From positions 31,170,001 to 31,234,000 of the forward strand of contig CP142451.1 in NCBI GenBank assembly GCA_038049695.1: a stretch of DNA of 64,000 bases, given 5' to 3'. Below are positions 7,260-60,096 of this stretch, piece after piece. Position numbers and translations under genes: made by a program. The notes beneath the pieces are model-generated. The model made no database searches. It was given only the letters and a program-made list of their open reading frames with translations, and was not told the origin of the DNA. This DNA is from Cinnamomum chago (Eukaryota; Streptophyta; Magnoliopsida; Laurales; Lauraceae). The number at the start of each line of letters is the position of its first letter. The first letter of the stretch is position 1.

Positions 7260-7469
7260 GAATATGAAAACATTTCTTCTAAGAGGCTTTCCTACTTCTA
7301 CTTATCCAAGCCTCAGCCGCATCAGTTTGCTATTCTAGTTCGTAGTATCCCATTGTCGTCTGGAAGGAGCTTCAGTGACAGTGTTGAGAGCTTTTTCATG
7401 GAGTTTCATTCATCTACCTACTTATCACATTGGGTTGTTCATCGAACAAACAAACTTCAGGGTCTCATT
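7260..7469 (+). CDS. OSCA/CSC1-like channel exon, cytosolic domain part 1
   Basis: This exon encodes 70 residues in phase 0, starting after TTCTGCAG and ending before GTAAGAA. The reading begins EYENISSKRLSYFYLSK, continues PQPHQFAILVRSIP and ends in a YLSHWVVHRTNKLQ stretch. Those motifs belong to the cytosolic RNA-recognition-like loop (PHM7_cyt domain) that follows the third membrane helix in OSCA/CSC1 proteins. The family forms dimeric, osmotically or mechanically gated Ca2+-permeable cation channels at the plasma membrane or an endomembrane. An ATG lies inside the exon at 7353 but is not the gene start, because conserved family sequence runs upstream of it. The exon is followed by a 14.7-kb intron filled with retroelements. 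Confidence 0.85.
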
Positions 7470-18204: not shown

Positions 18205-21200
18205 AACCAAACCAAATCAAACCAAGCCTTTTCCCACTAGGTGGGGTCGGCTATATGGATTTGACGACTCCAATCAAATCCGTTTAGGGCCATGTGCTCC
18301 GTTAGATCCATGTAGGCAAGGTCATGTTTAATAGTTTCTTTCCAACTTCTCTTGGGTCTCCCTCTCCCTCTCCTACTCCGGGCAATCTCCATGCTTTCAC
18401 ACCTTTTAACAGGTGCCTCCATTGGGCGCCTTCTAACATGGCCGAACCATCTCAGTCGATTTTCTCTCATTTTATCTTTAATCGGTGCTATTCTTACTTT
18501 GCCCATAATCTCTTCATTTCTAATCCTATCTCTCCTTGTGATCCCGCACATCCATCTTAGCATTCTCATCTCCGCAACTTCCATCTTCTTAACATGATAT
18601 TATGCTTTACTGCCCAACACTCTGATCCATATAACACTGGACGTACCGCCACCTTATAATACTTTCCTTTAACCTTGAGGGGGACTTTCCGATCACACAA
18701 GACCCCCGAAGCACTCCTCCATTTGGTCCACCCGGCCCGAATCCTGTGACTTACATCAGTATCAATCTCTCCATCTTGTTGCACCATAGATCCAAGGTGC
18801 CTAAAGTTTTCTTTCTCTACAATCTTTTGTGTGCCCAAACTTACTTCTAAGTTACCAAGTGTCCTACTTTGACTAAACTTGCATTCCATATATTCCGTCT
18901 TGCATCGACTTAGCCTAAACCCCTTTGTCTCTAACGTTTTTCGCCACAATTCTAGCTTAGCATTCACTCCTTCTCTCGTTTCATCCACTAAAACAATGTC
19001 ATCTGCAAATAGCATACACCACGGCACCTCATCCTGAATATGTCTTGTAATCTCATCCATAACTAGGGCAAACAAGTACGGGCTTAACGCTGAGCCTTGG
19101 TGTAGACCAATCGCGATAGGAAACTCTTTAGTCTCTCCGCCAGTCGTTCTTATAGATGTCACGGCTCTATTATACATATCCTTTATCGCCTCAATATATG
19201 CGACACACACTCTTTTCTTTTCCAGTACTCTCCATAGAATCTCCCTAGGAACTCGGTCATAGGCCTTCTCCAAGTCAATGAACACCATATGTAAATCTCT
19301 CTGGCCTTCTCTATACTGTTCCATTAACCTTCTCAGGAGAAAGATAGCCTCCATGGTTGATCTTCCAGGCATGAAACCAAATTGATTCTCTGAAATGTTT
19401 GTTGTTCTTCTTAGTCTTCTCTCAATAACCCTCTCCCATAATTTCATTGTATGGCTCATCAATTTAATCCCGCAGTAGTTCGCATAGTTCTGAATATCTC
19501 CTTTGTTCTTGTATATGGGTATAAGAATACTTTTCCTCCATGCATCAATCATCTTCTTACTCTTTAGCACTACATTAAAAAGCTTTGTCAACCAACTTAT
19601 GCCCTCCTCCCCCAAGCACCTCCAAACCTCAATAGGGATACCATCTGGCCCAACCGCTTTTCCATTCTTCATCATTTTCAATACTTCTTTAACTTCTTCC
19701 CTACTGATTCTCCTATAAAACATATGATTCGATTCTTCCCTAAAAATGGTAAGTTGCCCCAATTGTATGTCACTACTATTGCTATCGTTAAATAACTTGT
19801 AGAAGTAGCTCTTCTAACGCTCCTTTATCTCCTCATCCTTTACTAATACATTTTCATCCTCATCCTTAATGCATTTAACTTGGTTTAAGTCCTTGGTCCG
19901 CCTATCTATTGCTTTGGCAAGCTTGAATAGCTCTCTTTCGCCTTCCTTAGTGTCGAGTCGCCTATATAGCTCCTCAAAAGCCTTTGCCTTTGCTTCACTA
20001 ACTGCCTTTTTGGTTTCTCCTTTTGCTTCTTTATACCTCTCCAAGTTTGCTTCATTTCGATCCTTTTGCCAAGTTTTAAAGCACTCTCTTTTAACTCTTA
20101 TCTTGTTTTGGACGGCCTCGCTCCACCACCATGCCTCTTTCTGTGCCGGAGTACCCCCTTTGGATTCTCCTAAGACTTCTTTCCCTACCCTCCTAATACA
20201 CTCTGCTACCTTATCCCACATATTATTTGCGCTCTCATTTACCGCCCAAACGTCTTCCTCTAGTACTTTTTCCCTTAATGCTAGTTGCTTATCACCTTTC
20301 AAGTTCCACCATTTAGTCCTTGAGCATCTATACAACTTCTTTTTTCTAGTCCACCTTTGTAGCTGCACATCTATGATCAACAACCTATGTTGGGAAGTCA
20401 AGCTCTCCCCCGGTATAACCTTGCAATCTTTACAAGCTAAGTGGTCTCTTTTTCTAGTTAAGAAGAAGTCAATCTGTGTCCTTGAGGAGCCACTCTTATA
20501 AATCACCAAATGTTCCTCTCTCTTCCTAAAAAAGGTGTTAGTTACCATGAGATCATAAGCCACTGAAAACTCCAAAATATCCTTCCCTTCTTCATTTCTA
20601 TTACCGTATCCACGTCCCCCGTGTACTCCTATATATCCATCTACGTCACGTCCTACATGCCCGTTCAAATCTCCTCCTATGAAGACCATCTCGCCTTGGG
20701 GTATCTCTAGCAGCACTCCTTCCAAGTCTTCCCAAAACTTCTCCTTATGTCCATCTCCTAAGCCCACCTGGGGGGCATAAGCACTAATTACGTTCACTTT
20801 CTCTTCTCCTAACACTAACTTAATGGCAATAATCTTATCTCCACATCGCTTTACACTAACTATATCTTCCTTTAAGTCCTTGCTTACCACTATGCCGACC
20901 CCATTCCTCGATCTATTGAGTCCCGTATACCATAACTTATACCCAGTCCTCTCAATCTCTTTAGTTTTCTGTCCCACCCACCTTGTCTCTTGTAGGCAAG
21001 CAATTGCGATTCGTCTCCTTTCCATTGTATCCGCCACTTCCATAAGTTTCCCATTTAGGCTCCCAATGTTCCAAGTACCTAATCTCAGCCTTCTATTTTG
21101 GACTAGCTTCCTTACCCCCCACACTCGTCCCAAGTGTGAGGACCCTTGCCTATTTAGCACTGCACCCGGGTGCCGATGCAGCGGTCCTTGCTCACTTATC

Positions 21201-21373
21201 ATTGTACTCGGACCATACAGCGTGTCGCTAAGTAGGGGACGCTCCAACGAAATTTCATTAGGTCTCAAATCCATAAAGAAATCCGACTGAGTATTGTGCT
21301 GGCTGTCGGCTACCTCCTCCTTTGTTCGGGCTTGGGACCGGCTATGTCAAGGATACCCCAACTTAGGCGGAGT
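18205..21373 (-). mobile_element. RTE-clade LINE, essentially full length (3169 bp)
   Basis: A perfect 20-bp target duplication bounds an antisense element with an apurinic-type endonuclease followed by a reverse transcriptase, the RTE layout without RNase H. Its 3' end (left side) is not poly(A) but a short TTTGGTT-type repeat (CCAAACCAAATCAAACC on the + strand), as is usual for RTE elements. At 3.2 kb it has the usual size of the clade, so it seems to lack 5' truncation. The identical target duplication and only two coding lesions suggest a young insertion. Confidence 0.93.
18237..21274 (-). pseudogene. RTE LINE polyprotein: endonuclease and reverse transcriptase, nearly open
   Basis: The endonuclease domain starts near residue 65 (LRLGTWNIGSLNGKLMEVAD) with ACLQETRW, a GGDLNGHVG metal-site motif and SQHRLLIIDV. 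A lysine-rich linker follows. The reverse transcriptase has [50 protein letters not shown] and [13 protein letters not shown]-terminal RRNRLRWFGHVRRRP-type region closes it. The frame is broken by a TAG at 19814-19816, in the linker-RT junction where relatives have tryptophan (ERW..YFYKLFN), and by a frameshift near 18590 before EMRMLRWM. The endonuclease and RT motifs are otherwise intact. Function would be target-primed reverse transcription; this copy is inactive as it stands. Confidence 0.9.
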
Positions 21374-22170: not shown

Positions 22171-22365
22171 AAAGATGCAGAGAAGCAGTATAAAAGGCTT
22201 ACCCGTTTAAAGTCGAGTGATCATACTTCCCAAAATTTAAGGCGTAATGGATTCTTGGGACTGTTTGGACAGAAGGTTGACATTGTAGACCACTATGAAA
22301 AGAAGCTGGAAGAGTTAGAGCAGAATTTGAGAATAGAGCAGTCAGCTGCTTCATTCACAGGCAAG
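22171..22365 (+). CDS. OSCA/CSC1-like channel exon, cytosolic domain part 2
   Basis: This exon encodes 65 residues in phase 0, between acceptor CTTTCCAG and donor GTATATTT. The peptide starts KDAEKQYKRLTRLK and contains RNGFLGLFGQKVDIVDHYEK, a signature of the OSCA/CSC1 cytosolic loop, where a helical hairpin follows the (D/N)AEK motif. The charged LEELEQNLRIEQ stretch fits the amphipathic helices of that domain. No stop interrupts it. It is too short to stand out as an isolated open frame, but its splice sites and its fit to both neighbouring exons make it secure. Shortly downstream in the next intron lies a complete TRIM element. Confidence 0.87.
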
Positions 22366-26708: not shown

Positions 26709-27007
26709 GAAGTTGCAGCTGCATTTGTTTGTTTCAAGTCCCGCTATGGTGCTGCTGTTGCTCTCCACATCCAACAATCAGAGAATCCCACACAGTGGGT
26801 CACAGAGGAAGCTCCTGAGCCCCATGATGTTTACTGGCCTTTCTTTTCTACAACGTTTATGGCTGCATGGATTTCCAAGTTCGTTGTTATTGTAGCGACT
26901 ATAATTCTTACACTCCTCTTCCTCATTCCAGTTGTTTGTGTGCAAGGGCTTGCAAATCTGACAACACTAGAGAGTTTTTTGCCTTTCTTAAAAAAAATAC
27001 TGACTAT
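26709..27007 (+). CDS. OSCA/CSC1-like channel exon, end of loop and first helix of the pore core
   Basis: This 299-nt exon encodes 99 codons plus two bases. It begins after an AATAG acceptor and ends before GTAAGTAC. It starts [19 protein letters not shown], continues with the family motif [14 protein letters not shown], and ends in a hydrophobic helix ([19 protein letters not shown]) followed by VQGLANL. In the family, the PEP..V.W motif closes the cytosolic domain and the helix begins the Rsn1_7TM core. The split codon (AT plus T of the next exon) restores isoleucine. The exon lies between two divergent inverted copies of a 0.65-0.8 kb MITE-like repeat (24866-25515 and 28575-29372). Confidence 0.88.
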
Positions 27008-27442
27008 GTAAGTACTAATTTTAAATTTCAGACTACTATTTTTGAGAATGTAGATTAATCCCTGTTTTAACCATTTTACTTTTCCTCTTACATAAGATTA
27101 GAACTGCCCATATTAGCAAAAAAATAGAGAAAGCAAAACTATTTTTTTGCTGTTTTTAGCACAAGACTTTTGTGGGCTCATCTAGTTGCAAAAACCACTT
27201 GCCCTAAAATGCAAGTAATATTCCTCTGTCTGCCTAGTTGCATTCCCAGCTATCTGGGCTCACCTATGGTGGAAGTGAGCCAAAGACCCGTCACTTGAGA
27301 CATGCATCGGAGCAAAGACGGCTCGCTCATCTTTACCGAACTTGATCCAACCTTAGACCTATTGATTCTAAACTAAAATAGCTCAGTGTTTGAGATACCC
27401 AATAATTATTTTCGGGCATTTCAACGATGCTAAAAAGAAAAT
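27008..27442. other. Host intron, nothing recognised
   Basis: Non-coding sequence between the 26709 exon and a hAT-like MITE. Confidence 0.45.
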
Positions 27443-29643: not shown

Positions 29644-30072
29644 ATGGAAGTTAAATATTTAAACCTCCATGTATTGTCCTTTTTTGCTCTAGTATAAACA
29701 AAATGCTTTGTGAGAAATATTAACTTTTTTAATCATCTGTATGCAGTGCCTTTGTAAGTCAAGTAATTACTGGATATCTTCCGATAATGGAAGTTAAATA
29801 TTTTAACCTCCATTTATTGTCCTTTTTTGCTCTAGTATAAATAAAATGCTTTGTGAGAAATATTAACTTTTTTAATCATCTGTATGCAGTGCCTTTGTAA
29901 GTCAAGTAATTACTGGATATCTTCCGATAATGGAAGTTAAATATTTAAACCTCCATGTATTGTCCCTTTTTGCTCTAGTATAAACAAAATTCTTTGTGAG
30001 AAATATTAACTTTTTTAATCATCTGTATGCAGTGCCTTTGTAAGTCAAGTAATTACTGGATATCTTCCGAGT
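29644..30072 (+). repeat. 143-bp tandem triplication over a host intron/exon border
   Basis: Three consecutive near-identical units (29644-29786, 29787-29929, 29930-30072) each start ATGGAAGTTAAATATTT and end CTGGATATCTTCCGA. Each holds about 103 nt of intron end, an AG acceptor (exon-like starts at 29747, 29890 and 30033) and the first 40 nt of the channel exon. Few differences are visible between units, suggesting a recent duplication. Only the third unit runs into the full exon. Use of either upstream acceptor without a second splice reads into a TAA in the following unit. Confidence 0.93.
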
Positions 30073-30309
30073 CTCATTCTTCAGATGTTTTTATTGATTG
30101 TGCCTCCAATCATGAAGTTCTTATCCTCCATTCAAGGATATGTCTCTCACAGTCAGATTGAAAGAAGTGCTTGCAGTAAAGTACTTTGGTTTACCATATG
30201 GAATATTTTCTTTGCAAATGTTCTATCTGGATCAGTTTACAACCAACTGAATGTATTGCTTGATCCAAAGAACATTCCTATGAGGTTGGCTGTTGCTGTT
30301 CCAGCACAG
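30033..30309 (+). CDS. OSCA/CSC1-like channel exon, pore-core helices
   Basis: This 277-nt exon has one base completing the split codon and then 92 codons. It uses acceptor GTATGCAG and donor GTAAAAAC. It reads [20 protein letters not shown], then [20 protein letters not shown] and [20 protein letters not shown], ending [13 protein letters not shown]. These match the pore-lining helices and the linker of OSCA channels. The first 40 nt of this exon, with about 103 nt of preceding intron, are present three times in tandem (29644-30072). Only the last copy continues into the rest of the exon, so 30033 is the functional acceptor. The codons for V-S early in the exon spell GTAAGT, a perfect donor consensus seven bases after the acceptor. 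Confidence 0.87.
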
Positions 30310-33339: not shown

Positions 33340-33615
33340 GCCTCCTTCTTCATTTCCTATGTTGTGACATCTGGATGGACTAGTCTGACATCAGAACTTG
33401 CTCGTGTGATTGCTCTCATTACTGATTTTATTGGAAGGCATTGTTCAAATAAAGTAAATGATGAGTTTCATGGTCCATATATTCCGTACAACAGTGATAT
33501 TCCAAAAACTTTGTTCTTCGGACTTCTTGGTATTACATACTTTTTGTTAGCTCCCCTAATTCTACCTTTCCTCTTGGGTTACTACTGTCTTGGATACATT
33601 GTCTATCGTAACCAG
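33340..33615 (+). CDS. OSCA/CSC1-like channel exon, membrane segments of the Rsn1_7TM core
   Basis: This exon encodes 92 residues in phase 0, between a T-rich acceptor ending ATATAG and donor GTGAGCAG. The peptide starts ASFFISYVVTSGWTSLTSEL, a strongly conserved OSCA motif. It has a variable hydrophilic stretch (NKVNDEFHGPYIPYNSDIPK) and then hydrophobic helices around LFFGLLGITYFLLAPLILPF and YYCLGYIVYRNQ. There are no internal stops. The next intron is 26.2 kb and holds two L1 LINEs and a nest of LTR fossils, so splicing to the next exon must skip that whole block. Confidence 0.88.
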
Positions 33616-34002: not shown

Positions 34003-35836
34003 ACCTATGTCACGACCTAAATTCCGGGGCCCTGGCGGATATCCAGATTGTGATAACTTGGTAAGGTCCACCATTCATTTATCAAATTATTCGCATCAGA
34101 TTTTTGGCATATAACTCAATTATAATTCCAATTAACTTAAATAAAGTCAAACAATATAAAAAATCTTTGAATAATCCAAATCCCTTTGTTCTGACTCAAA
34201 TTAATAATGTACTAAACATTAAATCAATTGCTAAACAAAAGCTAATTCTTCTGTCACTCATATAAATATTTCTCGTTCTCTCTCTTCAGCCACGCATGCC
34301 AAAATCTACGTGCTGAGCGTCATCCTGAGTTATCCCACCCGCAGTAAGATTACCTGAAGGGGGTAACACAACATCAGTATTACTGGTGAATGAATATTCC
34401 TAATTACATAAGCAACATAAAACATAATATTACATGATTTAACATATTTGAAACAATATATTAAATGCCATAAAAATACATCCATATATATATATATATA
34501 TATATCCGTGCCCATGCACCTTACCACGCCTCAAAGGCCCATTGTATACATGTATACCGGTCACTATGACCCTGTCTCATCGGACACGTCCCCTATGGAT
34601 CAGCCGCTATAACGGCTCAGACACTAAGTCCAGCATCCCACGTCTGGGACCTCACCATCTCATAACAACCACAACTCAATATTATTAACAATTTTCCTCA
34701 TGTACATATCAATAGTGTGGGCCCAACCCTTACTAAGTTCACTGTTTATTTGCCCCACTCCAATTCATAATTGGTATTCTTGGGGTATGGTTGTTCCACA
34801 CCATAGAACAAAATACAATATACAGTAAATACTCATAATGCATATAATTAACTAAATTGATCACAGTTACTTTAATCACCATTAAATTAATCATTTATAT
34901 TTAAGCTATCTGCATATAACTTTATGTGATCATCACTCACCAATCCTGGGCCAAACCCAACTATATCCGTCTCAGACCCATGAACAGAACCCAGTATTGG
35001 GTTGTCCACGCCGGAAGGCTCACCCATGTAACATCCAGTGGGTCTCACTTACAAAATCCATGATCAGCCAACTAGGTGATGGTCGACCACTACTACACTA
35101 TCACCCTAATGGATCTGATCGATCATCAGGCCAATCCTGGGCCAAACCCAACTATATTCGTCTCAGACCCATGAACAGAACCCAGTATTGGGTTGTCCAT
35201 GCCTGAAGGCTCACCCATGTAACATCCAGTGGGTCCCACTTACAAAATCCATGATCAACCAACTAGGTGATGGTCGACCACTACTACACTATCACCCTAA
35301 TGGATCTGATCCATCATCAGGTCATGTCCTAGGGTCCACAAATCAAAAACGTGATTTACCCTTTTTCTGTACACAGTCATGCCTGACTGTATTTGATTTC
35401 CTTGATCAGTGGGTCCGACTGATCCTAATGCAAGATGTTCCACTCCACTATGGTCGCCCATTAATCCTCTTCCAGATGTGGGGTCCTGATTTTTTATCAG
35501 GTCCACTGATGGGTCCCACTGCCCCTGACGACATTCAACACTCTCTTCCTCATATTCACGTCTGGAGCATTACAACTGAATGGATGGAGCCCCAGACAGA
35601 GTTGAATCTTTGTAGGACCAGCATCACCTTGATCGACCAGTAGTGTCCTACTAGATCTCTAGACCTGATCTGCGATCAGGTGGGCCATGGGGTCCCACAG
35701 CCCTCCATTGTCTAATATCACCATGTCGACAGTCTCTGTTTCAACAGATATTCAAGCCTATTTCATGGATTTGCATTATATTCTACTTGTATCATTCCCA
35801 TATTCAATTACATAGGACTTCTTAACCATAACAGAT

Positions 35837-36310
35837 CATCTTAATACAGAATAATCAAATCACTTCTTCAACATTAGTTCTTTCTTAACACAGAATATCC
35901 AATTCACAATTCAACATCAACCATCTTACTTATTTAACTAATTAATTAGGAAGATCCACTCACCTTTGATAAACGATCGCCGCCTTTGCAATCTGTGGAC
36001 GCAAATAGGACATCAATAGCCTTCCCTTCCTGAATTGAATAGCTGTTACAGGGGTCTCACATGGAGCGCTTCCCATCTTAATACAGAATAATCAAATCAC
36101 TTCTTCAACATTAGTTCTTTCTTAACACAGAATATCCAATTCACAATTCAACATCAACCATCTTACTTATTTAACTAATTAATTAGGAAGATCCACTCAC
36201 CTTTGATAAACGATCGTCGCCTTTGCAATCTGTGGACGCAAATAGGACATCAATAGCCTTCCCTTCCTGAATTGAATAGCTGTTACAGGGGTCTTACATG
36301 GAGCGCTTCC
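35837..36310 (+). repeat. 237-bp tandem duplication spanning the LTR/LINE A junction
   Basis: Units 35837-36073 and 36074-36310 both start CATCTTAATACAGAATAATC and both end in the first bases of LINE A (ATGGAGCGCTTCC). Only two single-base differences were noticed. Each unit holds LTR sequence, the LINE target site and the LINE 5' start, so the duplication happened after LINE A inserted. Confidence 0.92.
36252..36268. repeat. LINE A target-site duplication, left copy
   Basis: AATAGCCTTCCCTTCCT, 17 bp, identical to 41972-41988. Also present once at this point in the uninterrupted LTR copy at 61001. Confidence 0.9.
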
Positions 36311-38055
36311 GAGGGGAAGGGAAGCGCTTCCATGGGAAACTCTTCTCCCTCTTCGTCTCCAACCTTCCTCCTGATCTCTCAAAGACAGAGCTGCAAGTTA
36401 TGTTTTGCAGAGCAGGTTCTGTAATAGATACCTTCATCCCTACCGACAAATCCTCTGGTAAGCAGAGAGGCTTTGGCTTCATCAGATTCAAAACAGAGAG
36501 AGAAGCCAACCTAGGTCTTGAGCTTGTCAACGGGAGATCTTGGAGAGGCTACAGAATCCTCGTCGACATCGCCCGTCCTAGATCAGCAGATACAATCTCA
36601 GGGCCCCTGCATCATCAACCTGCCAATGAAAAATCAGGGACTCTGCGACAACAGCATCCCAATGCTTGGATTCGTCCTCCATTGTGCATCGCCGAATCAA
36701 GCGCAGGGTGGATAGTGAAGAACGGACATTCCCACTTCATTCGAGTGGCCCCTAAGCTTGTTGAGTCAGAGATGAAGGCTCTCTGCCATAGCTTGATCGG
36801 TTTCCTACAGAAAAACGTCTCAATAGATGCTGTAGCTCGCTGGCTCACTCATCACTGGGGCAAATCGGCAGCCAGGCTAAGATTGTTAGACGATGATGTT
36901 GTTCACATCCAGCTCCTCTCAGAAGATGAAGTCTGTCAAGTTCTGAACTGTGTTGCAGGTTCTTCCTCCAGCCCGTTCGAAGCCCTAGACAGATGGATGG
37001 AGGTTATTGGCTCCCCCCCTATCACCAAATGGATTCGTTTCTACGGTGTTCCGCTACAAGCTTGGAACGAAGGTGTCTTCCGTCTCCTAGGCGACTTCGT
37101 CGGCTCAACCATAGAGGTAGATCGCCACACTTCGGAGAAGACGAACCTCGTCTACGGGCGTGTGAAGGTTCGCACCAGCAGACTTTGCAAACTCCCGTCG
37201 CAGATCCCTCTTTCCGTGGGAGACCTCTTCATCTCTGTTAGGGCAGACGAAGATCACTCCTCCTCCGTCGCATCCATCAGTGATGAAACTCCCATAGCAG
37301 CAAGCAGCGCCGACGACGGTGATTCAGGGTTCGCTGAGGAAGTCGATTGCTCAAGAAGTCTCCAGAATCGGGCTTTGGGTTGCAAGCAGGCCGGATCTGG
37401 AAGGTCCAGGGCCTCGTTTACATCTAAAGCTGAAGCATGGACCTGGCCCAAAGAAAAGACAAGCCCAGTGGGTCACGGCCTGACTAATGGAGCCAACTTA
37501 TGTTCTTTTCTTAGTAAATTGGGCCGGCCCACCTCCTCAGCCCCAGCCTTTACATCTTTTAAAACTCGAAATCCTCCGCTCTCCCATGGATTCTTGGAAA
37601 GCGGCCAGTCAGGGGGCAGATTTAAACCCCTGTCAGTTCCGGAAGCCCAGGAGAAGGAGAAGACTGACGCTCTACGTTTGCTCGCCTGCTCCTACGTTTC
37701 GGACTTCGACTCCACCAAATCAGGTTCCGATATTTACCCTTCTCTCCCATCCTCTCCATGCACAGTGCCGGCTACCTTTCTCTCTGTCTTCAAAGATTCT
37801 GCCATTTCTCCCTCTCGGCAGAATTCTGATGAAGACCACTGTTTTTCAAAGAAGACCAACTCCATCAGTTCTCTGTGTGTTGATCGAAGCTTTCTGCAAG
37901 AATCCCCAAATTCGTGGTTATCTCAAAAAATCAGAGTCTGTGGTGAGGAAATTGGCATCACAGTAGACAACAGCAGTCGAGAATGGGATAGCCTCATTGC
38001 CTTTGCAAAGGACAGAGATTTCGCCCTCAGAAGACCTGTCACCCACAAAAAGTAG
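36298..38055 (+). CDS. LINE A ORF1 protein (RRM plus DUF4283-like), 585 aa
   Basis: This is the RNA-binding companion protein of a plant L1. An RNA recognition motif spans about residues 14-100: LFSLFVSNLPPD is RNP2-like and KQRGFGFIRF is RNP1. A DUF4283-like region follows at about 140-320, including HFIRVAPKLVESEMKALCHS, WMEVIGSPPITKWIRFYGVP and LLGDFVGSTIEVD. The C-terminal half is Ser/Pro-rich and low in structure. The start ATG at 36298 is the first in the element and is shared with LINE B. The expected role is binding LINE RNA and forming the ribonucleoprotein with ORF2. It is intact over its whole length, while the LINE B counterpart has several lesions. The N-terminal start could alternatively lie a few codons further in. 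Confidence 0.9.
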   Translation: MERFRGEGKRFHGKLFSLFVSNLPPDLSKTELQVMFCRAGSVIDTFIPTDKSSGKQRGFGFIRFKTEREANLGLELVNGRSWRGYRILVDIARPRSADTISGPLHHQPANEKSGTLRQQHPNAWIRPPLCIAESSAGWIVKNGHSHFIRVAPKLVESEMKALCHSLIGFLQKNVSIDAVARWLTHHWGKSAARLRLLDDDVVHIQLLSEDEVCQVLNCVAGSSSSPFEALDRWMEVIGSPPITKWIRFYGVPLQAWNEGVFRLLGDFVGSTIEVDRHTSEKTNLVYGRVKVRTSRLCKLPSQIPLSVGDLFISVRADEDHSSSVASISDETPIAASSADDGDSGFAEEVDCSRSLQNRALGCKQAGSGRSRASFTSKAEAWTWPKEKTSPVGHGLTNGANLCSFLSKLGRPTSSAPAFTSFKTRNPPLSHGFLESGQSGGRFKPLSVPEAQEKEKTDALRLLACSYVSDFDSTKSGSDIYPSLPSSPCTVPATFLSVFKDSAISPSRQNSDEDHCFSKKTNSISSLCVDRSFLQESPNSWLSQKIRVCGEEIGITVDNSSREWDSLIAFAKDRDFALRRPVTHKK

Positions 38056-38159
38056 TCAAATAGGAAAGGAAGCAGAGAACTCCAGAATCTTTCGTGCTCC
38101 ATTAATTATGACAGTCGTCCTACTGTTCTCAGAGTCAGCGATTCCAGCAAGAGTTGTAA

Positions 38160-41100
38160 ATGAAGGCAATATCCTGGAATGTTCGGGGTTTAGGGAATTC
38201 TGTGAAGCGGGCAGTGATAAAAGAGGTAATTCGCACTTTCCGAGCAGACCTTCTGCTCCTTCAAGAAACTAAGCTCAGCTCAATGTCTCAATCAGTTATT
38301 AGGGATCTCTGGGGAAACAGTAAATGTTTGTGGATCTCCCTTGATGCAGTTGGAACCTCTGGAGGCATTGTTCTATGCTGGAATAGTCGGCAGTATATTA
38401 TGAAAGATCACTTCATTGGCACCTTCTCTGTCTCAGCAGTGCTTGAAGATTTGGCTAATGGCTCTTCTTGGATTGTCTCCTCTGTTTATGGCCCTACTGA
38501 CCGCAGTCTTCGTGGAAATTTTTGGTGTGAGCTTGACTCCATTCGTAGCAGATGGGTTGGTCCTTGGTGCATTGGTGGTGACTGGAATATCACTAGATTC
38601 CCTTCAGACAAATCAGGGGTTGGCAGAATTACAGCTGACATGATTTCCTTCTCAGATTGGATTAATTCCCACTACCTAGTTGATCTTCAATTAGGAGGGG
38701 CAAATTTCACTTGGTCCAATCACCAAAACCCTCCAACTATGTCGCGTCTAGACAGATTTCTGGTCACTGGGGACTGGATTGATCTGTACCCTGAAGTTTG
38801 CCAAATCGCCCTTCCAAAGCCGACTTCTGATCACTGCCCCGTCCTTCTTGATTGCAAAAGTCTTAAATGGGGACCTTCTCCCTTTCGCCTAGAGACAATG
38901 TGGTTGGAAGACAAAAATTTCATTGCTCTTATTAAGGAATGGTGGAATAGTTATGATATCATTGGTTGGGCAGGCTTCAGATTCTCCAAGAAGCTAAAGC
39001 AGTTGAAGCTAAGCATCAAAGACTGGAGGACAACCAATTTTGTGCCTGTCGAAGCTATCAAGGCCACACTTTTAAAAGAATTACAATCCATCGACTCCAA
39101 GGAAGAATCTCAAGGGCTTTCTGAAGCGGATATTGCTATGAGGCTGAATCTCAAAAATCTTTATGAGCGTAAAGTTCGCGAAGAAGAGATCAAATGGAAA
39201 CAAAGATCTAGATACCGTTGGCTAAAGGAAGGAGACAAGAATACCAAATTTTTCCACAGTATGGCCACGACCAGAATGAGGGGCAATAAGATTAATTACT
39301 TGCTAGACTCTAGTGGTAACAGATTAGAGGACAAGGATGGGATAACTAGCCACATTCTCAGTTTCTTTCAAAATCTTTTTAAAAAAGATGGTACTTGCAA
39401 GCCTTCCTTAGACAATCTCCACTTCCCCTCCATTAGTGAAGAGAATGCGAATTGGTTGGAAGATGAGTTCCACGAGGAAGAAGTCAAAGCAGCGATTTTC
39501 AATCTAGCCAGTGACAAAGCTCCAGGCCCAGACGGCTTCCCAATTTCATTCTTTCACAGATTCTGGGACCTTCTTCGAGCTGACATTATGGCCTTCATGA
39601 AGGAATTTCACTCCAGAGGAAGGCTTTCCAAATCGATCGGTGCCTCCTTCATTGCCCTTATCCCAAAGAAGACAGGGGCCGACAGTATAAAGGACTTCAG
39701 GCCAATCAGTCTTTTAGGCAGCATTTACAAAATCTTAGCTAAAGTGCTTGCCTCTAGACTACAGAAGATTCTCCCTTCCATCATCTCCCTCTCTCAAGGT
39801 GCCTTTGTTCAAGGTAGACAGATCTTAGATGGGGTTCTTGTTGCCAATGAATGCATCCATTCCAGATACAAGGATAAACTTCCAGGCATTATTTGCAAAC
39901 TTGACTTGGAAAAGGCCTTCGATATGGTGGACTGGGACTTCCTCCTATACTTGATGCGCAGAATGGGCTTTCGCCTTAAATGGAGGAACTGGATCAAAGA
40001 ATGCATTTCATCTGCCACCTTCTCCATCTTAATCAATGGTTCCCCGAAAGGTTTCTTTCCAGCTGAGAGGGGCTTAAGACAGGGGGATCCGTTGTCTGCT
40101 TTCCTTTTTGTCATTATTGGAGAAGCCCTCAGTCGGATGCTTTCCAAAGCAGAAGCCTGCAACTTGATCCACGGTTTCAAGCCTTCTCACAATGCTCCTT
40201 CTGTCTCCCACCTCCAATATGCAGATGATACCCTCCTTTTCTGTGATGCTGATGAGGACCAAATAAAAAATTTGGTTGCAATCCTCAGATGTTTCGAAGC
40301 TGTTTCGGGTCTCAGGATTAACTTCTCAAAAAGCTCCATCCTCGGAGTATCTACTGAAGACAGTTCCCTCCGTCACTATGCTACTATTTTGGGGTGCAAA
40401 GTAGACTCCTTCCCATCCTCCTACCTTGGTCTTCCCCTATGCCTGGACAAAGTGCCTATCTCTGTTTGGAATCCAGTGATTGAGAGGATTGAGAAAAAGT
40501 TATCTTCTTGGAAAGCAAAGTATTTATCCCTGGGAGGTAGAATTGTTTTGATCCAATCTGCTCTTGCCAACCTTCCCATCTACTTCTTGTCCATCCTTAA
40601 GTGCCCAGCTAAAATCATTGATCGCATCGAGAAGCTTCAAAGAGACTTCCTTTGGCAAGGCCGTGAGGACTCCAAAAAATTTCACCTGGTGAATTGGAAA
40701 ACAGTTTGCTCACCTAAAGACTTGGGTGGCCTCGGAATAAGACCTTTAAGGAAGATGAACCAAGCTCTGTTGGGTAAATGGCTTTGGAGACTTGGAGATG
40801 ATTCACAAGGCCTTTGGAAAAGCATCCTGGTAGCGAAATATAAAGTGAGAAGAAATGGTTGGGAAACCTTTCCTCCTTCACGAAGAAGTTCTAAATTCTG
40901 GAAAGGGATATACAGTTCCAAGGTTTCTTTTACCCAATCTATCCGCTACCGCGTTGGCAATGGAGAGAAGATCTTCTTCTGGCATGATGTTTGGGCTGGT
41001 GAAATCCCTTTAGCGCTACAGTTCCCTGATCTCTACAGATGCGCCAGAAACCGGAATGCCAAAATCAGTGAGTACCTTGACACAAGCAACAATAATCAAT

Positions 41101-41807
41101 TGTGGTGGCCTATCTTCAGAAGGAATCTTTCTGAGGAAGAAGAAGTTAATCTCTTAAATCTTATCGAGATTCTCAATGGCATAGATGGCCCTAGAGAAAG
41201 GCAAGATAGCAGGATCTGGATACATTCTAGTGATGGCTCCTTTTCGGTCTCCTCTTTCTTCTCCGCCTTATCAAACACTTCTATGGCTCCCCAAAGCTGG
41301 CATCGTTTATGGAAGATCAAGGCCCCTCCAAGAGTCATCGCCTTTACTTGGATTGCTCTCCAAAAAAAGATCTTAACTATGGACAACCTCTGCCGCAGAC
41401 ATATTCTCCTAGTCAATGCTTGCCCCCTTTGCCTAGCGGATGAGGAAACGATTGATCATCTTCTGCTACATTGCAAGCAGACGAAAGGCATCTGGTCAGC
41501 TATCCTGGAGGAGTTTAATTGCAACTGGGTCATGCCACAATCCTTGCCTGATTTGTTCCTTCTGTGGGCTAACCCGATTTTCACTTCCAAAGGGAAGACC
41601 ATGTGGCACATCTCTTTCTTGGCTTGCATTTGGACGATTTGGAAAGAAAGAAATAAAAGATGTTTTGAAGGGATAGCTTCCTCCCAAGAAGATTTAATTC
41701 TTAGAATGAAATTCTGCGTTGCCTCGTGGGTCTCCAATCTTCCGGAGTTTCGGGGCTTATCTACTGATGCTATTATGTACAATTGGAGGGAAGTCATTTC
41801 GGTTTGA
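38160..41807 (+). CDS. LINE A ORF2 protein: endonuclease and reverse transcriptase, 1215 aa
   Basis: The protein nicks target DNA and copies the LINE RNA onto it. The AP-like endonuclease occupies about residues 1-230: MKAISWNVRGLG, LLLLQETKL with the catalytic-type Glu near 36, VSSVYGP, GGDWN, and TSDHCPVLL. A basic linker follows. The reverse transcriptase lies at about 440-800: KAPGPDGFPISFF, DFRPISLLGSIYKILAKVLA, CKLDLEKAFDMVDWDFL, GLRQGDPLSAFLF, and the catalytic QYADDTLLF at about 686-694. Thumb and C-terminal regions follow, then a zf-RVT knuckle near 1050-1110 (WKIKAPPRVIAFTW, then NACPLCLADEETIDHLLLHC). The reading ends NWREVISV with no RNase H domain, unlike the two older L1 fragments in this window. 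The frame has no stop, and all catalytic motifs seen are intact. Confidence 0.93.
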   Translation: MKAISWNVRGLGNSVKRAVIKEVIRTFRADLLLLQETKLSSMSQSVIRDLWGNSKCLWISLDAVGTSGGIVLCWNSRQYIMKDHFIGTFSVSAVLEDLANGSSWIVSSVYGPTDRSLRGNFWCELDSIRSRWVGPWCIGGDWNITRFPSDKSGVGRITADMISFSDWINSHYLVDLQLGGANFTWSNHQNPPTMSRLDRFLVTGDWIDLYPEVCQIALPKPTSDHCPVLLDCKSLKWGPSPFRLETMWLEDKNFIALIKEWWNSYDIIGWAGFRFSKKLKQLKLSIKDWRTTNFVPVEAIKATLLKELQSIDSKEESQGLSEADIAMRLNLKNLYERKVREEEIKWKQRSRYRWLKEGDKNTKFFHSMATTRMRGNKINYLLDSSGNRLEDKDGITSHILSFFQNLFKKDGTCKPSLDNLHFPSISEENANWLEDEFHEEEVKAAIFNLASDKAPGPDGFPISFFHRFWDLLRADIMAFMKEFHSRGRLSKSIGASFIALIPKKTGADSIKDFRPISLLGSIYKILAKVLASRLQKILPSIISLSQGAFVQGRQILDGVLVANECIHSRYKDKLPGIICKLDLEKAFDMVDWDFLLYLMRRMGFRLKWRNWIKECISSATFSILINGSPKGFFPAERGLRQGDPLSAFLFVIIGEALSRMLSKAEACNLIHGFKPSHNAPSVSHLQYADDTLLFCDADEDQIKNLVAILRCFEAVSGLRINFSKSSILGVSTEDSSLRHYATILGCKVDSFPSSYLGLPLCLDKVPISVWNPVIERIEKKLSSWKAKYLSLGGRIVLIQSALANLPIYFLSILKCPAKIIDRIEKLQRDFLWQGREDSKKFHLVNWKTVCSPKDLGGLGIRPLRKMNQALLGKWLWRLGDDSQGLWKSILVAKYKVRRNGWETFPPSRRSSKFWKGIYSSKVSFTQSIRYRVGNGEKIFFWHDVWAGEIPLALQFPDLYRCARNRNAKISEYLDTSNNNQLWWPIFRRNLSEEEEVNLLNLIEILNGIDGPRERQDSRIWIHSSDGSFSVSSFFSALSNTSMAPQSWHRLWKIKAPPRVIAFTWIALQKKILTMDNLCRRHILLVNACPLCLADEETIDHLLLHCKQTKGIWSAILEEFNCNWVMPQSLPDLFLLWANPIFTSKGKTMWHISFLACIWTIWKERNKRCFEGIASSQEDLILRMKFCVASWVSNLPEFRGLSTDAIMYNWREVISV

Positions 41808-53094: not shown

Positions 53095-55078
53095 TAACGC
53101 CCCAATTCCGAATACCGAGTTTACTGCCAAGGTACCCAAATTTGGCGCGCTACTTTCCGAGTAGTCCGGGAACTTCCAAGATCGTAGGTCCGCGGTGAGG
53201 TTCAATTTAAAACATTTTACTAACATATGTAATCAATGGTTAAGTGCGGAAGCAATATCAATGATAGCGGAAGCAATAAAGGTATCAACTCCAAACATAT
53301 ATCAAATGTAGCAAGGCATGAGTCTAACCTAATCTCAAAGTATGAATAATAGTGTGTACATATCAGAAGAATGAATCCCCCCTTGCTCACAATAAAAGTC
53401 ACTAAAAATCCCAATACTAAGGTATCGCTCAATCCCAGGTATAGGCACTCCAAGCTCCGGCTCAACCTCTTGATCCGCCTACCCCCACCCCCACTCGTAC
53501 TCACCGGCTACAGGTGCCTCGACGAGTGCCCTCGAGGGTGATAATACCCAAGCACCAAATGATGGGTCAAATCCAATGATCTGGCAAGGCATGGTGTACA
53601 AGTAACATAGGATGTATGCATCAAACAGATAAGAGACGATGATGATATCATAAGAGTAACAAAGATACAATGCTAAGCAATAGTGCAAAGTATAGCAAAT
53701 AGAACCAATAAGGAAGTAAAGCATCTAACTCACCATCTAACAATATGGCACATTCACACGAGCTTGCCACCGCGGGATAATATGCCGCGGCCCTCCCATA
53801 CTGTTAACCAGTTGCAGTATGGAAAATAAAGTGCAATGCATGGGAAAACAAGCCCCGCCAATAATAATATAAAAACCCTAAGAAGTATATATGCCGTTAC
53901 CGGAGTTTATTGGTTGCGAACGTACCATATATACTTGTATATGCCGTTACCGAGCAGTGATTCAGGTCCGGGTGGGTGTCCCTCTCGAGGGGGGTGTTAA
54001 GTACCCGTATATGCCATTACCGGGCAGTGATTCAGGTCCGGGTGGGTGTCCCTCTCGAGGGGGGTGTTAAGTAGTTGTTTGTGCAGTTTCCTTTCACCAA
54101 TTGGTTTTGGGATTACTGGCTAGCAACTCTGAGAATTCTGCAAGTATACATCTACAAGCATTCAAGTTTCAAGGATGCCCAGTTTCGGAGTTTTCATTCT
54201 GTATATAGATTCCTACAACTTTAACTTGATCACATGTCCAAATTGATTTTTAAATAGTTCTCAGTAATTCTATTAGCTTGACATTCCAAGGCCAGATTTA
54301 GTATAAATACGCCTTATGCACGATGGATTTAATAATACCCCTGTCTGAATCAAAACTAGTATCCAACTGGCATAACGGGTGTTCATTGTTCATACCCAAC
54401 CCATATAAAGTTCTATTGTAATTCCTCAATTATAATTTTATAATATACTCTCAGATTTAATTAGAGTGTATGTAAACAGTAGAAACAAGAATACATTTTC
54501 CCAAGTAGTATCACATAAACATGTTCAATAATAGATATTCAACTATATACCAGGACCATAATTACAGTGCGACAGAGAAAAGTGAATACAAGCCGCGAGA
54601 ATGTGTAAAACATGTAAACAGCATGTCTTATGAAAAATGTTGAACATCAGATTATTTAATATTTCAAAACATTAGCAAAACCAGGCTCGAATCTCACATA
54701 ATAAAGAATAATCCAGATTAGATCCAAATATATGGGTTCAGCAGGCCATAACCCCACTATGGGATTTGATCATGTCCCAAATCCCATCAGATGAGGTCTG
54801 ACCAGCCCCTAGACTCCTATAGTGGAGTTCAGTCAAGGGGTTATTGCCCCATAGTGCTCATTCAACCACCGTAGATTAGTGGTCCGGGTCATCAATGATC
54901 ATCTTCCCCATTTTCCCTTAATTTTTTGTCTGCAACAAAGAGGAAAAATCATAACTTAAGAGTAATAGATTTCTATAATCAAGTCCCGAGATTCTCACAT
55001 AAACACAACTCAAGTAGAAAAGATTCTCTACTCATTGTGTAAGCCTCCGTCACTTGATTGACTTGTGGAAGGCTATAG
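53095..55078 (+). mobile_element. Long LTR with TGTAACGCCCC start (5' part)
   Basis: Starts TGTAACGCCCCAATTCCG, a common plant Gypsy LTR start. It probably continues after the solo LTR at 55079-57755 to about 58433 (CTGGGATGTTAC). A 70-bp direct repeat lies at 53937-54076. No matching target duplication was found, so the right limit is uncertain. A broken fossil. Confidence 0.45.
53937..54076. repeat. 70-bp tandem duplication
   Basis: Two nearly identical units with CCGGGCAGTGATTCAGGTCC-type, GGTGGGTGTCCCTCTCGAGG and GGGGTGTTAAGTA blocks. A partial third start (TATATGCCGTTACCGGAG) lies at about 53888. Confidence 0.9.
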
Positions 55079-59862: not shown

Positions 59863-60096
59863 CTATTAAATGTGTACTCGCCCAAATTTGAAACTGGTGG
59901 GAAGTTTTGGCCAATTGTGCATAACTCAACAATATTTTCATTAATTCTGATGCAAGCAATTGCAGTGGGGATATTTGGCCTGAAGAAGCTTCCTCTTGCA
60001 TCGAGCTTGACTCTACCTCTCCCCATACTTACACTTCTGTTTAATCAGTACTGTCGAAAACGGTTTCTGCCTATTTTCGGGAGTTACTCTACTGAG
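59863..60096 (+). CDS. OSCA/CSC1-like channel exon, last two membrane helices
   Basis: This exon encodes 78 residues in phase 0, between acceptor CTTTGCAG and donor GTGCTTTT. It starts [20 protein letters not shown], directly continuing the YRNQ end of the 33340 exon as in the whole family. It then has two helices ([18 protein letters not shown] and [15 protein letters not shown]) and ends [12 protein letters not shown]. In relatives, a final hydrophilic exon with a short acidic/basic tail follows; I could not find it in the remaining 3.9 kb. The exon is intact. Confidence 0.87.

Follow-up and report, generated by a model that had tools for sequence, protein, structure and literature searches.

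An OSCA-type channel gene of Cinnamomum chago carries a tandem triplication of an intron end and the exon start that follows it, at positions 29644–30072 of the window (the whole 64,000-nucleotide stretch of DNA that we analyzed). Judging from the sequence, we consider it probable that a repair-type duplication was expanded to three units, that the last of the three acceptors is the functional one, and that the two upstream decoys would leak non-productive RNA. The reading that fits the array best is a tolerated mutation, almost neutral or mildly harmful, and not an evolved regulator.

The assignment of the host to the OSCA family in the preliminary description agrees with our searches: the three joined exons around the array contain RSN1_7TM (PF02714, 4.8e-62) and PHM7_cyt (PF14703, 4.6e-11) domains, and the best solved relative is the CSC1-like protein HYP1 (8t57; 2.3e-266, residues 1–661 of 713, in an alignment that used an earlier exon join from which one exon was still absent). 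The host is an OSCA/CSC1 (TMEM63-like) channel gene of the HYP1 type, extending over at least 88 kb (C1:31142252–31230096) for a coding sequence of about 2 kb. Nine exons, with boundaries hand-picked from homology and splice motifs, join into 1992 nt, or 664 codons with no stop; we did not find the end of the protein, past HYP1 residue 661 of 713. The last six of these exons lie inside the window, all on the plus strand: exon 4 (7260–7469), exon 5 (22171–22365), exon 6 (26709–27007, ending in phase 2 at the donor TAT/GTAAGT), exon 7 (30033–30309, 277 nt, the true exon behind the array), exon 8 (33340–33615) and exon 9 (59863–60096). All eight introns between the nine exons are GT-AG, a GT also follows exon 9, and intron lengths range from 3.0 kb to the 26.2 kb that precede exon 9; the intron containing the array is the shortest, measuring 3,025 nt when the last acceptor is taken as its end.

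A pseudogene reading was set aside on the strength of the 664 stop-free codons from nine exons and the GT-AG ends of eight introns. The intact OSCA frame is weak proof of function: without constraint, the expectation since the duplication is about 1.07 nonsense changes, and the probability of finding none is 0.34.

Two introns in the window also contain mobile-element sequence. Within the 26-kb intron 8 there is a LINE-type element (36280–41807) with long open frames and matches to RRM_1 and DUF4283 as well as to endonuclease, RVT_1 and zf-RVT domains, followed from 46126 onwards by a similar, more broken stretch recognized by eye. A second LINE-like element, with endonuclease and RVT_1 in two frames, occupies 18566–21346 on the minus strand of intron 4.

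The array itself consists, as had been described, of three head-to-tail 143-bp units directly 5' of OSCA exon 7; both TRF (29644–30070, period 143, 3.0 copies, 97% matches, score 819) and a letter-by-letter comparison find them. Over 141 columns (columns 142–143, where unit 3 has entered the true exon, were left out), pairwise identity of the units is 96.5–98.6%, with three mismatches between units 1 and 2, two between units 1 and 3, and five between units 2 and 3. Only five columns vary: unit 2 has private substitutions at columns 18, 28 and 56, unit 3 at columns 37 and 62, and unit 1 has none, carrying the majority letter at all five. We judge that a repeat of such length and identity is not due to chance. 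Tandem copies are prone to mis-assembly, which counts in favor of an artefact in which the plant has fewer units; the private substitutions, three in unit 2 and two in unit 3, argue against assembly stutter, and we regard an artefact as very unlikely.

Each unit (unit 1, 29644–29786; unit 2, 29787–29929; unit 3, 29930–30070; all on the plus strand) begins with 103 nt of intron end, in which a putative branch site ATATTAAC, picked out by eye, is followed by a T-rich stretch and TGTATGCAG, and continues with the first 38 nt of OSCA exon 7. The intron portion and its AG are thus as previously reported, whereas the exon portion, put at 40 nt, is 38 nt followed, at the ends of units 1 and 2, by a 2-nt filler, TA. 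Unit 3 continues directly as the exon, its acceptor being contiguous with the full exon. The donor after base 27007 therefore faces acceptors before 29747, 29890 and 30033, the first two of which open decoy exon starts; these positions are those initially given. Columns 63–141, which include the putative branch site, the acceptor and the exon copy, are identical in all units.

In every exon copy a GTAAGT follows TGCCTTT, seven bases after the acceptor, so that the decoy starts in units 1 and 2 delimit latent 7-nt microexons at 29747–29753 and 29890–29896, in keeping with the original observation. The donor-like motifs at 29754 and 29897 match, in sequence terms, what is expected of a latent donor and would bound two potential 136-nt introns, 29754–29889 (73% A+T) and 29897–30032 (71% A+T), compared with 62% A+T for the exon. 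With ten GTAAGT motifs on the plus strand of the window, a single occurrence is unsurprising, and in OSCA exon 7 the motif is a Val-Ser codon pair. In a paralogue at C1:103.57 Mb, the corresponding intron shares position and phase but has a single acceptor; the exon behind it opens with GGCTTTTGTAAGCCAGG, encoding Ala-Phe-Val-Ser-Gln as in the array gene. Because the paralogous exon shares GTAAG, this motif is shared coding sequence and not a product of the duplication; the duplication could, however, make it matter, since there is now an acceptor whose end lies 136 nt beyond the motif.

In that paralogue, about 16 kb separate the outermost domain matches, as against at least 88 kb for the array gene. 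At C10:56579874–56615756, two further OSCA copies gave exon matches that share a strand and are separated by about 27 kb.

Within the limits of our searches of the 1.06-Gb, 14-contig genome, no further copy was detected of either the 94-nt exon start or the 103-nt intron part. The possibility that the unit is a dispersed repeat or transposon is unsupported, the three array copies being the only ones found in these searches.

The near-identity of the units, from which a recent origin had been proposed, is borne out, but "recent" needs qualification: at assumed rates of 1.5e-8 to 1.5e-9 substitutions per site per year, the mean pairwise divergence of 2.4% corresponds to roughly 0.8–8 million years. 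As for mechanism, insertions analyzed in human and plant genomes are described as hinting at an origin of small tandem duplications in the error-prone repair of double-strand breaks (PMC8355091, which cites plant papers by Vaughn and Bennetzen in 2014 and by Schiml in 2016). We propose that 141 bp spanning the 3' end of OSCA intron 6 were duplicated when a local break was repaired, leaving the 2-nt filler at the joint, and that the third unit would have arisen later by unequal exchange or slippage. We infer this order, break repair and then expansion, because the two joints are identical; identical joints with a 2-nt filler would fit one end-joining event followed by expansion.

Duplications of this general kind are not confined to the array. 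Among 175,339 distinct bases of the genome, a sample of loci biased towards OSCA genes and the array window rather than drawn at random, TRF found 10 distinct arrays whose period is 100 or longer and whose match rate is 91% or higher. In this count, overlapping loci (L001–L006, L008, L012, L013 and L030–L032) were left out and rows duplicated through overlap were merged by eye. Two of the ten, which were compared with OSCA genes only, cross an OSCA exon boundary. Tandem duplications called by TRF lie at 34940–35321, 35837–36310 and 53937–54073 of the window and, elsewhere, in loci L009, L010, L021, L026, L029 and L037; roughly two-copy duplications with periods of about 70–280 bp and 91–99% matches are frequent in the sampled stretches. 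A case in another OSCA gene, at C12:1903843–1904395 (1.904 Mb; loci L022 and L026), has a period of 283 and two copies with 97% matches, lying over an exon end and its donor; seven mismatches fall in columns 1–270 of the 283-bp period, and the remainder lie beyond the end of homology. It resembles the triplication in being a tandem duplication over an exon/intron boundary in the same gene family and differs in having two copies and in copying the exon end and donor instead of the acceptor, making it a mirror image. The window and the paralogues suggest that boundary-type tandem duplications are frequent in this genome, and further boundary-crossing cases should therefore be findable.

Since each unit holds an apparently complete acceptor module with a letter-identical core, three acceptors could compete for one donor. 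We computed the U1 duplexes for a subset of the donors of the gene and followed the reading frame through the combinations of decoys. The latent donors TTT/GTAAGT score −4.9 kcal/mol, equal to the real intron 6 donor TAT/GTAAGT (at 27008); the donor after exon 7, CAG/GTAAAA, is stronger (−8.3), and a second latent donor, GTAATT (16 nt), is weaker (−1.6), its combinations also being unproductive. All seven decoy combinations computed contain a premature stop: use of a decoy acceptor with no second splice reads into the previously noted TAA (at 29838 or 29981), inclusion of one 7-nt microexon leads to a stop after 42 altered residues, and inclusion of two to a stop after five. Protein diversification through productive tandem acceptors or alternative exons is ruled out by frame in these seven combinations, none of which gives an in-frame product; with three units, there is consequently no evident route to it. 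The premature stops lie at least 150 nt ahead of a later junction, by arithmetic, and the usual rule for nonsense-mediated decay (NMD), which covers stops at such a distance before a later junction, therefore applies to them.

Under the reading that we favor, the last acceptor, the only one placed on the whole 277-nt exon with its strong downstream donor, would most likely make the functional mRNA; we prefer it because the gene looks intact, which is weak evidence. The upstream acceptors and latent GTAAGT donors would take a minor share and yield frame-shifted or stop-containing RNA, probably cleared by NMD. That the array could lower or regulate channel expression, as initially suggested, is possible; nothing found here appears to point to regulation.

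The latent donors equal the host donor in U1 pairing, and both inner introns are short as well as rich in A+T, so that use of the decoys could instead be the rule. In that event the first acceptor would be used with GTAAGT as donor, the 136-nt segments would be new introns and one or two 7-nt microexons would be left, a form of intron gain like that in potato; were the inner introns excised first, the first acceptor alone would be left and the mRNA would gain 14 nt, leading to a stop after ILTIAFCLLPL and a largely silenced gene. The presence of an acceptor module in each unit would also suit this reading, while the frame, open over 664 codons, is weak evidence that the gene has not long been silenced. 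There is also little space between acceptor and donor in an exon of 7 nt, which likewise counts against this reading. Plant splicing is nevertheless described as handling microexons down to 1 nt (PMC8831610), and the anatomy is that of the potato RdRp gene, whose new intron is reported to have RNA-seq confirmation (PMC4974935). On balance we consider intron gain of this type unlikely.

Premature stops in all seven computed combinations, together with an acceptor core and exon copies that do not vary across units, could also be expected of a selected unproductive-splicing switch, in which decoys would be used under certain conditions and NMD would tune the channel level. A substitution-free acceptor core and exon copy are a hint of constraint. 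None of the five substitutions lies beyond column 62 of the 141, which has P 0.015 if the split is fixed and P 0.089 if an invariant run of 79 or more columns may lie anywhere; as the run was chosen post hoc, the latter value applies, the invariance lacks significance, and we do not claim selection on the acceptor core. The array is, moreover, absent from the paralogue at C1:103.57 Mb, and duplications like it are common in those stretches of the genome that we sampled. We find a switch of this kind improbable.

Frame arithmetic, carried out for zero to six microexons, raises one more idea, to which we give very little credence: the array may act as a copy-number-dependent frame switch, each decoy being spliced as a 7-nt microexon. 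Three such microexons would restore the frame, and the array has two decoys only. If this were true, zero or three decoys (one or four units) would keep the frame and one or two would lose it, and expansion or contraction of the 143-bp repeat would turn the OSCA channel off and on.

With three naturally occurring copies of an acceptor module whose core is letter-identical, the array allows the choice that plants make among competing 3' splice sites to be tested cleanly. The array is also a possible snapshot of duplication-driven intron gain, before or during recruitment.

In the titles and abstract openings among the literature matches listed, we found no OSCA case of such a duplication. Reporter RNAs with a duplicated 3' splice site, derived from human beta-globin, reportedly go back to Reed and Maniatis in 1986. 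Beta-globin pre-mRNAs whose upstream copy of the site carried 14, 55 or 205 nt of exon were spliced to the downstream site only, and this splicing was very inefficient (PMC5389562). Like the OSCA array, these reporters duplicate the acceptor and join part of the exon to the upstream copy; they differ in being artificial constructs in splicing extracts, with two acceptors (PMC5389562). Conversely, the potato RdRp gene does splice from its cryptic GTAAG donor to the duplicated acceptor, the new junction being spanned by 106 RNA-seq reads (PMC4974935); the two precedents would thus point opposite ways as to which acceptor wins.

Tandem duplication is reviewed as one mechanism of intron gain (PMC3443670), and Drosophila cases have been described (PMC2891723). 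The tandem-repeat introns of the fission yeast genes SPOG_01682 and SOCG_00815 are, according to the part of the report available, likewise intragenic tandem copies with cryptic splice sites, in which non-identical copies were also held to argue against assembly error, but they have 24-nt units and AGGC proto-splice sites (PMC3629103). The closest likeness is to potato RdRp, in which, as far as the source describes it, the duplication spans an intron end and exon start, the copy inherits its branch site, pyrimidine tract and AG, the new donor is a cryptic GTAAG within the duplicated exon part, and the gene has another tandem duplication, of 83 bp (PMC4974935). Potato RdRp has two units and the OSCA array three (PMC4974935); in the OSCA array, unlike the potato gene as described, the latent donor lies just 7 nt into the exon and would give rise to 7-nt microexons, one or two of which lose the frame, and splicing is a prediction from sequence. 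Given the same anatomy in potato RdRp, the OSCA array is a tandem genomic duplication over an intron–exon boundary of an already known kind, to which it adds two new details, a copy number of three and a spacing of 7 nt.
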